IMG/VR virus record: IMGVR_UViG_3300018023_000032
Coordinates: 1 to 24,588 of that record
Direction: 5' to 3' (one strand)
Length of the DNA: 24,588 bases
Origin: a virus
Both the position numbers and the translations under genes were made by a program. Below the pieces are notes generated by a model. That model did not search any database. It saw only the letters and a program-made list of their open reading frames with translations, and was not told the DNA's origin. Below, piece after piece: positions 11,502 through 17,770 of the stretch (the stretch's first letter is position 1; each line of letters begins with the position of its first letter).

Positions 11502-13214
11502 TTACATACCATTCGGAGAAAAAGGCAGCTGAGACGGGTCCGACCAGTTAGGTAATCCCTTTTTCGCCATATCGTAGACCTGATACGCATCGGCAGCGGC
11601 AGCGTTTATATTGACATTGGTTTCGCTTCTTCGATTATCATTCACGACGGTCGATGTTTTATTCGAGACAGTGGAGGATGGGTTAGCTGGGACAATCGGC
11701 TTGCCTCGCACGGTCGGGCCAAGATTGGCTTTTATAGTATTCGCAAAATCGGCAACGGCATTAGGGTCAATCATAGCATAAATATCATTGAAGTCGTAAT
11801 TCTTGCTTTTGTCTTTTTCGCCTTCGCTGGCTTCTCGATTCCAATTATTTATAAGCGTCTGCCTTAAAGTGTATTTACGGTCTTTTCTGCCGCCCACTTC
11901 ATCTGCATATTGGGCTTCTGCTTTTGCGTAGGCCAGTATTTCGTCGCCGATACTAACATCAACCCCTTTTCGTCTGCGGTCTTTTGGATTGAGAAATTCG
12001 CGGGTTTGCTGGGGCATATTGGCGACATTTCCCACGAAGTTGGTTGTGGCAGCACCCAATCTAACGGCGAGAGCAGGAAATGCCCGAAGCAGGTCAATCA
12101 ATACCTGCACAGAATCCACTGCATCTGCTGCCGCAAGAGCAATGCCTCTGAAGAATTCGTCTATGACTCTGTGTTTATTCGCCGTTATGCCCATTATTGT
12201 ATCGAGGGCATCGGCAACCACCAAAATAGCAGCATAAACGAGAAGCATTTTAGCTCTATTGTAAGCCCACAAAACGCCCATAGCCGCCAGTCCCCATAAG
12301 GCCAGATTGATGAATTGCTCGGTTTTATCTTTCAAATTGCCGGTCAGCCCCAGCGCGTCTCCTATCGCCTTGACATACGGCTGCATCGATTGCCAGACCT
12401 TGCCCAGTTGATGATAAAACTTATCAAAGCCCGATACGATACCGAGTATAACCTGCTCTACTTTAAGAGCAATCCAGTTCTTATTGAGCGTTACCCAATC
12501 GCGGAATTTTGTAAGCAGCTCAGTCAATTTGGGCATAAGGCCAAGCCCTATTTTGTTTGATATGCCGCCCCAGACGCCCTCAATATCTCGCCAAACCTTC
12601 AGGAATTTAACAGCGCCCTCCTGCGCCCCTGTTGGTATTATCAGTCCCAAGCTCTCTGCCTGCTGCTGTAACGCCTTTATTCCTGCGCGGCCTTCGCGGA
12701 GAAGATTGATTGTGTCAACAGATATTCCGAGCCGGCTGCCCCATTGCAAAGCTTCAGTCATACTCATCTTGCCGAGCCGGGCAGACAAATCCTCCAGAAC
12801 ATCCGCTACATTGCGAATACCGCCGCCAAACTTATAAGCATTTATTCCCAATTGAGCAAGGGCGACATTGAATTCGCCCGGTACAGGGGAGGTCATCGAT
12901 TTGGTGAGGGACAACAAATCAGAGTTTAGATTCTTTGAACTGTAACCAAGCTGCTCTACGGCGTAATCCATCGCCTGAATTTTCTCTGAGGATACGCCGG
13001 TATTCTTCGCCAGCTTGAGCAAGTCCTCGGCGTTGGTCGCTATGCTCTTTATCCAGAATCCGAAGCCCGTAGAAAATGCCGCGATTGCAATAGTCGCCTT
13101 CTTGCCGACGGACTCGATTTTGTCAAGCCCCTCCTGCATCTTGTGCATTACGGCGATGGTCGTTGGGTCCACCTCGACGCCAAGGACGGTTATAAGCTCT
13201 GAAATCACAGCCAT
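11502..13214 (-). CDS. tail tape measure protein
   Basis: The 570-aa product has tape measure features. The N-terminus is helical (VMHKMQEGLDKIESVGKKAT) with a hydrophobic stretch. Long helices with Phe/Trp spacing follow, then two central membrane-type segments (about residues 301-317 and 322-340: FINLALWGLAAMGVLWAY and MLLVYAAILVVADAL) and a polar C-terminus. The KNTGVSSEKIQAMDYAVEQL segment is commonly found in tape measure N-terminal domains of this phage type. It follows the tail chaperone genes and precedes the Dit gene, the standard position. At about 1.5 angstrom per residue it would set a short tail of very roughly 85 nm. Its ATG overlaps the stop of the HNH gene (TAATG). Confidence 0.9.
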   Translation of the reverse strand: MAVISELITVLGVEVDPTTIAVMHKMQEGLDKIESVGKKATIAIAAFSTGFGFWIKSIATNAEDLLKLAKNTGVSSEKIQAMDYAVEQLGYSSKNLNSDLLSLTKSMTSPVPGEFNVALAQLGINAYKFGGGIRNVADVLEDLSARLGKMSMTEALQWGSRLGISVDTINLLREGRAGIKALQQQAESLGLIIPTGAQEGAVKFLKVWRDIEGVWGGISNKIGLGLMPKLTELLTKFRDWVTLNKNWIALKVEQVILGIVSGFDKFYHQLGKVWQSMQPYVKAIGDALGLTGNLKDKTEQFINLALWGLAAMGVLWAYNRAKMLLVYAAILVVADALDTIMGITANKHRVIDEFFRGIALAAADAVDSVQVLIDLLRAFPALAVRLGAATTNFVGNVANMPQQTREFLNPKDRRRKGVDVSIGDEILAYAKAEAQYADEVGGRKDRKYTLRQTLINNWNREASEGEKDKSKNYDFNDIYAMIDPNAVADFANTIKANLGPTVRGKPIVPANPSSTVSNKTSTVVNDNRRSETNVNINAAAADAYQVYDMAKKGLPNWSDPSQLPFSPNGM

Positions 13215-13957
13215 TATTTACCACCCTTTTTTAATTTATGACAATCAAAGCAAAGTGTTTGCCCGTTGTTAATATTCCAAAGCTCTTCGCAGGCCAACGC
13301 CTGCTCAAAAGAAAGTATTTTATATTCACTGAAGATAGAGGCGAAGCTTTTGGGTGCGTGATGGGCTTGTAGGTCGCCTCCGCGTTGTCCGCAATCCTGA
13401 CAAGTATAATTATCCCGCGTGAAAATATCAGAGCGCCATTGGCGATAACGAAAATCATTTCTAACTTTCGTCATCACCGGCGTTATGCCGCCCTTCCATT
13501 GTGGATTTTTTTCTTTAGCAAATGTGCCTTCCTTGATACGGGTGTCCGACATCTTTTTTTTAGCCGCTTCTGAATGTTTGTGGTATCTATTCTTAAAGCC
13601 CATTATTCGGGCCTGTTCTGTCAATTGTTTTTTTCGCTTCTCACTCAATACGAGCTTTTTCCCTTTATGTTTTTCGCTCATATTTTTAAGGTATTCGGGG
13701 GTTGCGTGCGTGCGACGCATTTTGAGTTTAGTTTCTTCGGTATGAGGTATGCCGAGACGGAGTTTATTGCCTTTCATTCTCGCGCTTTGCTCAGGGCATT
13801 TTTCGCCAAGGCGTTTCCCTTTTTGGGCTTCGCTCATATTGCGCAGATGTTCAGGGGAAAACTTCTTACCCTTCGACCAAGACGTGTGCCCTTTATTTGC
13901 TTCGCTCTGCTTCCGGCGAATTTCGGCAGTTCTTACATATATTCCAGGGCGTCCCAT
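13214..13957 (-). CDS. HNH homing endonuclease with NUMOD3 motifs
   Basis: Residues 1-150 are basic and contain several NUMOD3-type DNA-binding repeats: HLRNMSEAQKGKRLG, HTEETKLKMRRTHA, YLKNMSEKHKGKKL, HSEAAKKKMSDTRI. Residues 170-247 form an HNH nuclease domain: Cys186-x2-Cys189, His199-His200, Asn230/Asn231 and Cys236-x2-Cys239-His240, giving the His-Asn-His core and a structural zinc site. This is the usual make-up of free-standing phage homing endonucleases, which nick or cut alleles lacking the insertion and so spread. It sits between a hidden 57-codon gene and the tape measure gene, sharing a TAATG with the latter, so the insertion is neat and polarity-neutral. No intron ends are visible around it. 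Confidence 0.9.
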   Translation of the reverse strand: MGRPGIYVRTAEIRRKQSEANKGHTSWSKGKKFSPEHLRNMSEAQKGKRLGEKCPEQSARMKGNKLRLGIPHTEETKLKMRRTHATPEYLKNMSEKHKGKKLVLSEKRKKQLTEQARIMGFKNRYHKHSEAAKKKMSDTRIKEGTFAKEKNPQWKGGITPVMTKVRNDFRYRQWRSDIFTRDNYTCQDCGQRGGDLQAHHAPKSFASIFSEYKILSFEQALACEELWNINNGQTLCFDCHKLKKGGK

Positions 13958-13970
13958 TTATGCTTTATCC

Positions 13971-14144
13971 TTATCTGCAACGGGCATTTAATTTTCCTAA
14001 AATTATTGCCAGCTTTGTAGCTGTTAAATACGCTTCGGACATAAGTTTTTTAACCTCGCGCACGGCTTCAGCAGTGCCTTCAATTTTGATTGTCGCCACT
14101 AATTCCTTCGCCGGCTCCCTGTTGTCGTCATTCTTCTCTGGCAA
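13971..14144 (-). CDS. hidden 57-aa gene between tail chaperone and HNH (TTG start)
   Basis: This reading frame has no early ATG. With the TTG at 14144 it gives MPEKNDDNREPAKELVATIK, then IEGTAEAVREVKKLMSEAYL, then TATKLAIILGKLNARCR. The composition and the strand-helix-helix pattern look like a real small protein. The frame is open back to a TAG near 14193 and overlaps the end of the chaperone -1 extension by 17 bases. An AGGA lies a few bases before the TTG, so initiation is probably weak and may depend on coupling. It could be a further tail-assembly factor or an end piece of the chaperone reached by recoding. The start codon is the uncertain part. Confidence 0.5.
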   Translation of the reverse strand: MPEKNDDNREPAKELVATIKIEGTAEAVREVKKLMSEAYLTATKLAIILGKLNARCR

Positions 14145-14777
14145 TTTCCTGCTCTCTTTCCCTCGCCGCTTTCTCGCAAGAGTCCCGCCAATCTATCATT
14201 CGCAAAATCTCAAAAATGTCGTGTACTGAAAGCGGATTGATTTTGTCGGTCAGGTCTTTGTATCGCACTACGCCTGAGAAGCAGAGCTTGCTTCTGATGG
14301 CTGTGAGTTCGTTGTATCCGTCTGGCTGGCTGACACTGCCTTCGTCGTCTTCGTCGCCAATCCGAGTACGAAGGTACGCAGCCCGCTCGGTAAAAAATCT
14401 TTAGCCAGCGACCATATCGCCTTGAGCGTAACAAAATAAAGGTCTTCAGGATGGTCTTTGAACCACTGGTCGCGGTTCTCCGGGGTATTGAGAAGGATGC
14501 TATTTGGTGAGCGGACAAAATTCAGGGCGTAAAAAGCAACCGCTTTGAATCTCGCCGAGTTGAATCCGCCTGCTGCCGCCCCCAATATCGCCAGCCATTT
14601 GTCCTCCGGGGTCTTGCCCTGTAATTGGTCAGAGGTGACATTCCCGATGTTGCCGGCAAGAGGGGTTATCATTGCCGTCACGTCTATCCCGAAGCCCAAT
14701 GCCTCATCCGCCGACATTGGTTCGAGAAAATACGTATTACTGCCTACCGTGAAACTTTTGAGCTTGTCTGCCGTCAT
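14128..14777 (-). CDS. tail assembly chaperone, -1 frameshift fusion (GT-like)
   Basis: Joining the first 129 codons of the chaperone gene (14777-14391) to the -1 frame at 14391 gives a product of about 216 aa. The 87-residue extension reads TERAAYLRTRIGDEDDEGSV, then SQPDGYNELTAIRSKLCFSG, then VVRYKDLTDKINPLSVHDIF and a charged helical end (REREQEIAREE). It looks like ordinary protein and stops with TGA at 14130-14128. The -1 frame is closed by a TAA at 14403-14401, so it opens exactly at the slippery site. Paired chaperones made by a programmed frameshift just upstream of the tape measure gene are a conserved feature of long-tailed phages (lambda G/GT being the model). Here the extension would bind the tube protein while the common part coats the tape measure. 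Confidence 0.8.
14268..14777 (-). CDS. tail assembly chaperone, unshifted product (G-like)
   Basis: The zero-frame product is 169 aa from the ATG at 14777, chosen because AAAGGAG lies nine bases upstream; the TTG six bases earlier would be too close to it. Residues 1-129 are the folded part (VGSNTYFLEPMSADEALGFG, then GKTPEDKWLAILGAAAGGFN, then NRDQWFKDHPEDLYFVTLKA). After the slippery site the zero-frame tail turns low-complexity, rich in Ser/Thr/Ala (SQTDTTNSQPSEASSASQ), as expected for sequence whose real constraint is in the other frame. It lies between tail tube and tape measure genes. Confidence 0.85.
   Translation of the reverse strand: MTADKLKSFTVGSNTYFLEPMSADEALGFGIDVTAMITPLAGNIGNVTSDQLQGKTPEDKWLAILGAAAGGFNSARFKAVAFYALNFVRSPNSILLNTPENRDQWFKDHPEDLYFVTLKAIWSLAKDFLPSGLRTFVLGLATKTTKAVSASQTDTTNSQPSEASSASQA
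14391..14397 (-). promoter_or_regulatory. -1 ribosomal frameshift slippery heptamer T TTT TTA
   Basis: In the chaperone frame the codons are GAT TTT TTA, giving the heptamer T TTT TTA in the correct X XXY YYZ phase. This is a canonical slippery sequence, the same as that of HIV-1 gag-pol. A weak hairpin (CCGAG at 14390-14386 with CTCGG at 14366-14362, enclosing a short GTAC/GTAC pairing) follows, but it begins only one base after the heptamer, closer than the usual 5-9 bases. I do not rely on it. Confidence 0.78.
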
Positions 14778-14827
14778 GCTCAAACTCTCCTTTCTTCTTT
14801 TGCTGCCCTATTGACTTTTAAGATATG

Positions 14828-15289
14828 TTAAAGGCCGAGCGCCGCCGCTGCCGCTAATGCAGCACTTGCAACGTCAAGATTATTTTCCTGCAAATCGCCG
14901 CTTACGAACGTCCACTCCCGGGCGCCCATTTTCTTGTCGCCGGTAGTAAGCTCGCCGGGCCGCGATATCAAAGCACCGGTAAGCACATGGAGAGCGCCTA
15001 CGCCGCTTCGCACCGTAACCATAAAGCCGTCGTCGGAGGCCATGCCCTGCTCCTGTGCAATGCGCAAAGTCGACAAGTAGCTATGCGAGGTCGAATTCTC
15101 GCGGAGTCGCAGTTTGATTGTGCCGCCCTGATTCGTTGCCTGATTCGGGGAGCCGCCGTCCAGCCCCTCGGTCATTTCAACCTGACCGCCGACCGGCGTA
15201 ACAATAATACAGCCGCCGTCACTGAATCCCTGGATGCGAATACCGGCAACGTAAACGGACGCTTGTGATTGATTATATACTCGTCTCAT
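14828..15289 (-). CDS. tail tube protein
   Basis: A 153-aa beta-rich protein with the DUF3277-like tube pattern: YVAGIRIQGFSDGGCIIVTP, then QVEMTEGLDGGSPNQATNQG and TIKLRLRENSTSHSYLSTLR, ending in REWTFVSGDLQENN and an Ala-rich helix. Stacked hexamers of this protein form the inner tube through which DNA passes. The gene lies between the sheath and the tail chaperone genes, the standard place. AGGAG precedes the ATG by ten bases, a rather long spacing. Confidence 0.85.
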   Translation of the reverse strand: MRRVYNQSQASVYVAGIRIQGFSDGGCIIVTPVGGQVEMTEGLDGGSPNQATNQGGTIKLRLRENSTSHSYLSTLRIAQEQGMASDDGFMVTVRSGVGALHVLTGALISRPGELTTGDKKMGAREWTFVSGDLQENNLDVASAALAAAAALGL

Positions 15290-15307: not shown

Positions 15308-16801
15308 TCAAACAATCGCATTGACGTTTATGTTGACGAAGTGAATAGCGTCTGAGAGATACCCGATTATCTGGACAGGCGGGGCTATCCTTGCCGCTCT
15401 GTCTGCCGCTGATACGCCGTAAATCGGCATCGGGATAACATCGAACGCTTTGAGGATTGTAAAGCCGCTCTGCGCGGTATCATCCGCAACCTGCCTGTCG
15501 GCAAAGGTGCCGTTGCGAATATAATTACTGCCGATAAGTTGGCACGCCTGACAGATAAGCGTTTGCCCGGCCACCGTGTAAGGCACTTTGCCATTGCGGA
15601 GGAACACATTGAAAACTTCCACCTTCAATTCGTTGATGAAGTTATGCAGATTCACCAGCATATCCGTAAACCAGGTATCCGCGGATTGCACGCCTTCACG
15701 ATAAACGTGAGCATTCGCACCCTGAAGGACAAGCGTATTTATCCTTCGGCCCGCGAGCAGAGCTAACTGCGTCTCGGTCAGCGGCGTAGGTGTGCAGCCG
15801 GAGAGATCTTTGAATTTGCCGGTAATTGTGGAATCGGCCAGTGAGTAATCGACCGACAGGAACATTGCCAGGGCGCTCACGTCGGGGTATTCCTGGGCAT
15901 TGTTTGAATAGACGACGCCGACGAATCGATTGTCGGAGTTGTTGGCATAGTAACCGATATTCGTCTCGTCAGCACCACTATAAGCGGTAACGTCATTTGA
16001 AGCGAGTATACTTATCGCCGGCTGATTATCGCTGTGGCCGCCAACCCAATCAGCGAAATCGCTCTGGTCTGATGTGTCGCGGTAATCGAGGTCGATGCAC
16101 CAGCCGTAAATCGGGTATCCGGCGTTTGTGCTTTCCTTCTGGACTTCCGCCGCTTCCACCGCGAGAGCGCCGTGTGTCCAGCCCTGCGATAAGACCGCAC
16201 CTGTCGCAGCGGTCAATCTTGCGACTGCGCTGATATCAGCACCCGCTATTGCCGTCGCGTAATCGATTGTCTCGGTCGCGCCAGTAGCCGAGCCGGTCGA
16301 TATTGTGATACTGCCATCATCATTTGCTACGCAGGTCGCGCCTGCCGGGAAATTCGTACCTGCCGCGATAGCTGCCGCAATCTTTGTCGCGGTATCTAAA
16401 CCTGTGAGAGCGATTGCTGTTATCGCTACGGGCGAGCCAGCGATGGGGATAGTCAATACGCCAGTGCCCTTTGCCTCAATTGCGGTAATGTCTGCGGCAC
16501 TCAAAGGCCCGCTCATTATCGCCCCCGGCTGGTTTGCTGTTGCAACAAGCCCGACGGCTAATCTTTTCGGCCTGCGAACCTGTGCAAAGAACGCCTGCCC
16601 CGCCCACCACTTTGCGGTCCCGGGCGCGTAGTCGGCCTCATATTCCGCCATAGTGAGATAATACTTTACGCGGTTCCACGAGAAAACCGTCGCCGATTTG
16701 AACAGCACGGCCATTAGCGACATATCCGTAGCCAGTAGCGTTTGCGCTACCGACACGCTCACGTTTACGTCTATATCCACTGGTATCCGCTGATTGCTCA
16801 T
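15308..16801 (-). CDS. tail sheath protein from internal start
   Basis: An ATG at 16801, in frame with the long ORF, is preceded by AAAGGA at eight-base spacing. It gives a 497-aa protein that matches the full length expected of a DUF3383 tail sheath. The sheath is needed in six copies per tube ring, so a dedicated start yielding the plain sheath is more plausible than a virion built only from 820-aa subunits. The A of the ATG is followed by TGA in one of the other frames (ATGA), the usual coupling junction between two separate phage genes. I therefore regard this as the main sheath product. Confidence 0.8.
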   Translation of the reverse strand: MSNQRIPVDIDVNVSVSVAQTLLATDMSLMAVLFKSATVFSWNRVKYYLTMAEYEADYAPGTAKWWAGQAFFAQVRRPKRLAVGLVATANQPGAIMSGPLSAADITAIEAKGTGVLTIPIAGSPVAITAIALTGLDTATKIAAAIAAGTNFPAGATCVANDDGSITISTGSATGATETIDYATAIAGADISAVARLTAATGAVLSQGWTHGALAVEAAEVQKESTNAGYPIYGWCIDLDYRDTSDQSDFADWVGGHSDNQPAISILASNDVTAYSGADETNIGYYANNSDNRFVGVVYSNNAQEYPDVSALAMFLSVDYSLADSTITGKFKDLSGCTPTPLTETQLALLAGRRINTLVLQGANAHVYREGVQSADTWFTDMLVNLHNFINELKVEVFNVFLRNGKVPYTVAGQTLICQACQLIGSNYIRNGTFADRQVADDTAQSGFTILKAFDVIPMPIYGVSAADRAARIAPPVQIIGYLSDAIHFVNINVNAIV

Positions 16802-17770
16802 TTGTGGTTTCCTTTCATTTTTTTTCGCCTGAAAATTGGCTTCAAGAGTATAATCGTCATTCATCGTCAAAAACGTTGATGCTGCCAACGGGTCATTCAC
16901 CGGAGCAGTGCCCGTCCAGACATCAAAGTCGTATTCGAGGTCTGCTTCTGCGATGACATTTACCTCTTCACCGTGATTGTAAACGTGCTGCCCCAAAAAG
17001 GGTTCTGAGACGAATCCGCCGAGGGATGATGATACGGTTAGGGTGTAAGTTGTGGGAGCTGGCGTGCCTGAGCTTCCAAAGCCATTCCCGAAAACTCCGG
17101 CTACCCTTGCCGACTGAGTGGCTACGTTACAAGTGCCGTCGTGTCCACCTACCGCCCCGGTATCAGCATAAGTATTACCGGAATTATTCTCATTAAAAGT
17201 CCAGTGATAATCGGGGGCAAGACCAGCCGTGGGGTCTATGGTTGCGGCCTGCAAAGCGGCAATCTGCCCGTCGCTCAGAGCCGACTTCCATATCATCAAT
17301 TCGTCAAGGGCAACATCAGATTGATTAGCTGTGGGTGGATAAGTATTGGCATTTATTAAATGTAAAGACGAATTAGAAGGACGGGGAAGACCTGAATCGC
17401 TTTCAACGTTTGGGCTAACAAGAATGCCGTCAATCCAAATCGAAATCGTTGGGGAGTTACTCTGTAAATTGATGCCCCTTATTTCTATTTCATGCCAGTT
17501 GCCATCGTCTATGATGTTTAAATTAAGTTGCGGTGAGGCTGTATTATACCGGCCTCCAAAGCCATAGGCATTATAGTACAAATCCAAGTATTTTGAACCA
17601 AAGTTGTGTGTCCCAATTTTCCAAAAATAATATGAGCTCGCAACAAACTGATTGTCCATTATGGCCGAGTTGCCTGAAGGTATCGGAGATAAGTATTTTA
17701 TCCGAAACGACCACGTCATATTACTGGCGTCGATATCCTGCCCATTCGGGATTGTAACTATATTCGCCAT
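15308..17770 (-). CDS. LamG + InlB-repeat + tail sheath (DUF3383) fusion protein
   Basis: The full ORF is 820 aa. Residues 1-175 form a laminin-G/concanavalin-like domain (GNWHEIEIRGI, ISIWIDGILV, then DVALDELMIWKSALSDGQIA), with a second LamG-like fragment at 186-231 (DYHWTFNENNSGNTYADTG). Residues 241-316 form a divergent InlB B-repeat (TYTLTVSSSLGGFV ... TMNDDYTLEANFQA). From residue 324 it is a normal DUF3383-type tail sheath: MSNQRIPVDIDVNVSVSVAQ, then YYLTMAEYEADYAPGTAKWW and VRRPKRLAVGL, ending in IHFVNINVNAIV. Sheath proteins of this class start near MSNQRIP; I know of none with this N-terminus. The join falls at an A8 run, and the sheath part has its own ribosome binding site. The gene starts next to the stop of the 73-aa gene (TAG then ATG). 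It may be a real fusion, a recoded gene pair, or two genes joined by a one-base sequencing error. Confidence 0.75.
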   Translation of the reverse strand: MANIVTIPNGQDIDASNMTWSFRIKYLSPIPSGNSAIMDNQFVASSYYFWKIGTHNFGSKYLDLYYNAYGFGGRYNTASPQLNLNIIDDGNWHEIEIRGINLQSNSPTISIWIDGILVSPNVESDSGLPRPSNSSLHLINANTYPPTANQSDVALDELMIWKSALSDGQIAALQAATIDPTAGLAPDYHWTFNENNSGNTYADTGAVGGHDGTCNVATQSARVAGVFGNGFGSSGTPAPTTYTLTVSSSLGGFVSEPFLGQHVYNHGEEVNVIAEADLEYDFDVWTGTAPVNDPLAASTFLTMNDDYTLEANFQAKKNERKPQMSNQRIPVDIDVNVSVSVAQTLLATDMSLMAVLFKSATVFSWNRVKYYLTMAEYEADYAPGTAKWWAGQAFFAQVRRPKRLAVGLVATANQPGAIMSGPLSAADITAIEAKGTGVLTIPIAGSPVAITAIALTGLDTATKIAAAIAAGTNFPAGATCVANDDGSITISTGSATGATETIDYATAIAGADISAVARLTAATGAVLSQGWTHGALAVEAAEVQKESTNAGYPIYGWCIDLDYRDTSDQSDFADWVGGHSDNQPAISILASNDVTAYSGADETNIGYYANNSDNRFVGVVYSNNAQEYPDVSALAMFLSVDYSLADSTITGKFKDLSGCTPTPLTETQLALLAGRRINTLVLQGANAHVYREGVQSADTWFTDMLVNLHNFINELKVEVFNVFLRNGKVPYTVAGQTLICQACQLIGSNYIRNGTFADRQVADDTAQSGFTILKAFDVIPMPIYGVSAADRAARIAPPVQIIGYLSDAIHFVNINVNAIV
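16818..16825 (-). repeat. A8 homopolymer at the LamG-InlB/sheath junction
   Basis: Eight A in a row on the coding strand, between the InlB-type repeat and the sheath start. With eight the frame continues into the sheath. With nine (or a -1 slip) the next codon after the Lys codons is TGA. With seven (or a +1 slip) the frame runs six more codons and stops at the TGA overlapping the sheath ATG. Such runs are prone to polymerase slippage and to sequencing error. Confidence 0.85.

Follow-up and report, generated by a model that had tools for sequence, protein, structure and literature searches.

A probable G/GT-type programmed -1 frameshift in the tail assembly chaperone gene of a distant uncultured phage

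Introduction

A conserved frameshift in the tail assembly genes of dsDNA phages was reportedly described by Xu, Hendrix and Duda in 2004. A review of this frameshift covers the gpG/gpGT pair of lambda, whose G part binds the tape measure protein and whose T part binds tube subunits, their ratio being important (PMC5009743). In the Vandenendeviridae and Andersonviridae myophages, such as phage Adele, the corresponding products are TAC-N and TAC-NC, the 3′ end of TAC-N carries a polyT slip motif (GTTTTT), and the -1 frame runs uninterrupted up to the tape measure gene; the tree in that study was rooted on RHEph04 and Erebus (PMC12846349). Together with PMC5690320, these two papers form the literature that we count towards a frameshift reading of the locus described below.

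The locus lies on the minus strand of the window, by which we mean the whole stretch of 24,588 nucleotides analysed here (IMG/VR record IMGVR_UViG_3300018023_000032). Judged from its sequence, it is very probably a programmed -1 frameshift of the G/GT type in a tail assembly chaperone gene. As in lambda gpG/gpGT, the chaperone gene is upstream of the tape measure gene, the proposed -1 slip falls near its 3′ end, the extension lacks a start of its own and two products would share one start. The lambda slip sequence differs from that of the window, and in the window the gene of a homing endonuclease separates the chaperone locus from the tape measure gene. With the Vandenendeviridae and Andersonviridae the window shares a contractile tail and a polyT slip site at the 3′ end of the chaperone gene, and relatives of RHEph04 and Erebus turned up in our searches; it differs from the Adele-type phages in the T_TTT_TTA heptamer and in a sheath protein only ~25% identical to those of the nearest isolates. 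Because a polyT slip site in chaperones of these two families has already been reported (PMC12846349), neither the mechanism nor the type of slip is new, and the recoding event itself is known and very widely conserved in phages. What is gained is a corrected annotation, in a distant uncultured phage, for a gene overlooked by callers that rely on start codons, and a likely identity for PHROGs families so far listed as of unknown function.

Results and Discussion

Anatomy of the slip site

The features of the locus and its neighbours are collected in Table 1. The heptamer spans the zero-frame codons GAT TTT TTA, which are codons 127-129 of 169 and thus near the 3′ end of the chaperone gene, and both its place and its phasing agree with the first-pass annotation. 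So do the -1-frame TAA, which closes that frame so that it can be entered only past this stop, and the Ser/Thr/Ala-rich stretch into which the zero frame turns after the slip site, PSGLRTFVLGLATKTTKAVSASQTDTTNSQPSEASSASQA. The 87-residue -1-frame extension was likewise recovered, giving a predicted fusion product of 129 + 87 = 216 aa, while what had been called the next 'small gene' is here taken as a candidate open frame. This small open frame, VATIKIEGTAEAVREVKKLMSEAYLTA..., occupies ~14152-13983 (minus strand) of the window, with the -1 extension on one side and the HNH gene on the other.

Table 1. Features of the chaperone locus and flanking genes (window coordinates).
Feature	Coordinates	Strand	Basis or detail
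Zero-frame tail assembly chaperone, predicted G-like short product, 169 aa	14268..14777	-	ATG 14777, TAG 14270-14268
Shine-Dalgarno-like AAGGAG of the chaperone gene	14787..14792	-	sequence; 9 nt upstream of ATG 14777
Slippery heptamer TTTTTTA, phased T_TTT_TTA	14391..14397	-	sequence; same position in homologues
-1-frame TAA stop just before the heptamer	14401..14403	-	sequence; one AGA codon separates TAA from slip site
-1-frame extension, putative T-like domain, 87 aa + TGA (14130-14128)	14128..14391	-	translation, codon usage, profile, predicted fold
Ser/Thr/Ala-rich zero-frame tail beyond the heptamer (40 codons and stop), coding in both this and the -1 frame	14268..14390	-	translation
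Tail tube protein	14828..15289	-	phrog_280 E 4.5e-18; tblastn to DUF3277 structural proteins
Tail sheath protein, DUF3383	15308..17770	-	PF11863 153 bits, phrog_205
Tape measure protein	11502..13214	-	phrog_2276/8125 E about 1e-30
HNH/NUMOD3 homing endonuclease, between chaperone locus and tape measure gene	13214..13957	-	PF07460, phrog_589

The extension might instead be a separate gene, translated from a ribosome binding site of its own inside the chaperone gene, and it is true that PHROGs lists extensions of this kind as free-standing short families (phrog_4364, phrog_16793 and phrog_4625) and that some annotators call small genes here, such as a 141-nt CDS after the chaperone. A scan of the -1 frame found no ATG, GTG or TTG in the first 41 codons of the extension, which bears out the earlier claim that the extension as a whole has no start codon of its own and that a simple ORF caller would miss it. 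The later candidates, GTG 14268 and TTG/ATG 14205/14199, have no clear Shine-Dalgarno sequence and would lose the dual-coded beginning of the frame and, with it, at least half of its length, and we consider a separate gene extremely improbable.

A model for the two products

We propose a model in which programmed -1 slippage yields two proteins from the single chaperone start. The majority of ribosomes would reach the TAG and release the 169-aa chaperone, and a minority would slip back by one base at T_TTT_TTA, as the tRNAs on Phe-UUU and Leu-UUA both re-pair with UUU UUU. Slipped ribosomes would read 87 further codons to give the 216-aa fusion as a minor product, and the rate of slippage would set the ratio of the 169-aa to the 216-aa protein. 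By analogy with lambda, the N-terminal part common to both products would coat the tape measure protein, and recruitment of tube subunits would fall to the C-terminal, T-like part. RNA folding downstream of the heptamer, limited to pseudoknot-free structures, gave z-scores of -0.64, +0.66, -0.19 and +0.78, and hence no stem-loop beyond chance. It is possible, if doubtful, that across the clade of myophages with a DUF3383 sheath the U6 heptamer and its flanking codons set the slip by themselves, without an RNA stimulator, the short:long chaperone ratio then being encoded only by the slip site.

Rarity and coding character within the window

Phased X_XXY_YYZ heptamers occur 35 times in the 7627 codon steps of the window genes, about one per 218, so that a phased heptamer taken alone has little meaning. 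Only one of these 35, that of the chaperone gene, opens a -1 frame reaching more than 100 nt past the zero-frame stop (137 nt, the runner-up reaching 29 nt). On a codon-usage score trained on the other genes of the window, the -1 stretch scores +0.054 bits/codon, below the genes themselves (+0.10 to +0.34, the lowest at +0.096) and above every one of 48 off-frame controls (-0.98 to -0.12 bits/codon). The portion of the -1 frame past the zero-frame stop scores +0.041 by itself, and the zero frame across the same stretch as the extension scores -0.30 bits/codon and contains stops.

Conservation in related loci

When viral contigs were searched with one protein at a time (chaperone, extension, tube or sheath), no close relative of the window phage came up, and a tblastn search of phages with the chaperone and the extension gave no match. 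Distant relatives were gathered by similarity of tube, tape measure and sheath, the heptamer playing no part in their choice. Of the 138 viral and genomic loci retrieved through sheath similarity, which are not independent of one another, 114 carry a phased heptamer followed by a -1 extension of 55-115 aa in the gene that follows the tube gene (a chance match elsewhere in one further locus, L069, was excluded); among other ORFs of the non-redundant loci, used as a control, 5 of 773 show this combination. A motif, RPV..x..L.DGT.SL.D...MNEALD, is common to these extensions, which run up to the tape measure gene or stop close to it. In most of the isolate phages examined the chaperone genes carry a phased T_TTT_TTN, C_CCT_TTT or A_AAT_TTT and then a -1 extension of 74-95 aa, the hosts being Rhizobium, Vibrio, Acinetobacter, Burkholderia, Erwinia, Pectobacterium, Aeromonas, Salmonella, Yersinia, Klebsiella and Edwardsiella. 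The absence of the heptamer and -1 frame from homologues had been named beforehand as grounds for rejecting the frameshift; both are present, at the same place, in most loci.

These loci also bear on whether the two frames are in truth one ordinary gene, broken by an assembly or sequencing error or by a genuine indel in the T6 run. The window is a contig of an uncultured virus assembled from a metagenome, it is the single contig of this virus seen, and homopolymers are prone to error. The same break nevertheless recurs at the same place in isolate genomes and in the 114 loci, and in the window the zero frame stays open and coding-like for 40 codons past it, which together make a broken gene very unlikely. 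Slippage of the transcript on the T6/A6 run, in place of slippage of the ribosome, would be another route to the longer product, and a run of six T could in principle yield transcripts longer or shorter by one. Some homologues, however, have C_CCT_TTT, A_AAT_TTT or A_AAT_TTG at this position, and these are heptamers suited to tandem slippage and not homopolymers; we give the transcriptional route only the slightest probability and retain ribosomal slippage as the preferred reading.

At the slip site most of the proteins read [DNG]FF or [DNG]FL, which raises the matter of how this motif is spelled in codons. Among chaperones selected for xFF, 46 of 49 spell it T_TTT_TT, as against 41 of 418 (9.8%) comparable F-F/F-L dipeptides in the remaining genes of these loci, shared ancestry being ignored in both counts. 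Since this difference exists although TTC outnumbers TTT among the Phe codons of those other genes (4766 to 3086), the heptamer is not a by-product of the protein motif, and the bias in spelling goes far beyond codon usage.

Individual isolates show the likeness more closely. Burkholderia phage Magia and Shewanella phage 1/41 have the gene order of the window, and a joined, frameshifted chaperone is already annotated in them; Magia differs in slipping at C_CCT_TTT. No heptamer of the strict type was found in the chaperone genes of Shewanella 1/41, the Pseudomonas KIL phages or Edwardsiella ZHS. The Vibrio phages PP270, XM1 and VBM1 share with the window a zero-frame stretch, F-DHP-D...FLP (32% over 50 residues), and place T_TTT_TTG at the same Phe-Leu at which the window has T_TTT_TTA, whereas similarity between the extensions is undetectable pairwise, BLASTP of the window extension against that of PP270 giving no match.

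The strict feature is missing from 24 of the 138 loci, four of which end too early. Of the others, most of those read by eye (for example L039, L047, L058, L070, L082, L112, L123, L134 and L140) have the same -1 extension and no X_XXY_YYZ that passes the strict, in-phase filter. As the extension is kept without a strict heptamer in, for example, L039 and L047, slip sites outside the X_XXY_YYZ pattern probably exist in this chaperone family.

Identity of the chaperone

That the zero-frame protein is a tail chaperone had earlier been deduced from position, and profile, synteny and predicted fold now back this. Its match to phrog_1613, 'tail assembly chaperone', has E 0.0019, and that to Phage_TAC_15 (PF21822) scores 15.5 bits, below the curated cutoff of 22; in the set of homologues, 34 of 37 match Phage_TAC_15 and 34 of 37 match phrog_1613. 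An AlphaFold2 model built on an alignment of syntenic homologues (mean pLDDT 83) is confident to about residue 130 and falls to pLDDT 56-69 beyond, which is to say just past the slip site. Its matches in BFVD (E 1.3e-4 to 1e-3, probability 1.00) include several proteins annotated as tail assembly chaperones. The protein thus resembles this family in both profile and predicted fold.

The chaperone model (14271-14777, minus strand) has one clear match in the PDB, 5ir0, which is ORF19 of a PICI-like element of Vibrio cholerae and has no known function (Z 8.3, rmsd 3.3 over 99 of 103 residues; the next PDB entry has Z 3.1). A search of the literature found no paper linking this ORF19 to tail assembly chaperones. 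The model comparison suggests that the satellite protein may have the fold of a tail assembly chaperone.

The extension and its family

The first-pass annotation had named a profile search of the 87-residue extension as a check, and its outcome was divided: Pfam gave no match and a profile of 20 extensions did not recover the window extension, while a larger profile gave a weak match in register. The latter was built from 91 other extensions left at 80% identity, isolates included, and against it the window extension ranks second among 712 window ORFs, profile positions 35-78 aligning to residues 36-81. As good a score was reached by 4 of 3000 shuffles (p about 0.001), a value that applies to a single predicted target and would miss significance in an open search. 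The hhalign probability against the family is low, at 8%, and the match to phrog_4625 has E 0.024. In the predicted structure the extension forms a helical domain, residues 28-87 being mostly above pLDDT 80, behind a disordered linker; Foldseek found no significant match for this model.

Free-standing families in PHROGs can be reassigned from the same comparison. The family phrog_4364 ('unknown function') is matched by 46 of 48 aligned extensions, but not by that of the window, and phrog_4364 and phrog_16793 correspond to the extensions of L005, L002, L014, L017 and others. These two families are best read as C-terminal chaperone parts made by frameshifting and not as free genes, and the same reading probably holds for phrog_4625.

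Gene neighbourhood

Profile matches of the neighbours put the tail tube gene on one side of the chaperone locus and the tape measure gene on the other. The G/GT-like position claimed at the outset therefore stands as regards the order tube-chaperone-tape measure, but the locus does not adjoin the tape measure gene, since the HNH/NUMOD3 gene intervenes. Rfam and tRNA scans of the window gave no match.

In the same cluster, the DUF3383 part of the sheath protein is preceded by an in-frame N-terminal addition of 320 aa, composed of a Laminin_G_3-like domain (below cutoff) and an InlB B-repeat (PF18998, 36.9 bits). The core of the sheath starts at an internal ATG near 16801 with GAAAGGAA a few bases upstream, and given this internal Met and the sequence preceding it, both a plain and a decorated sheath may be made from the one gene.
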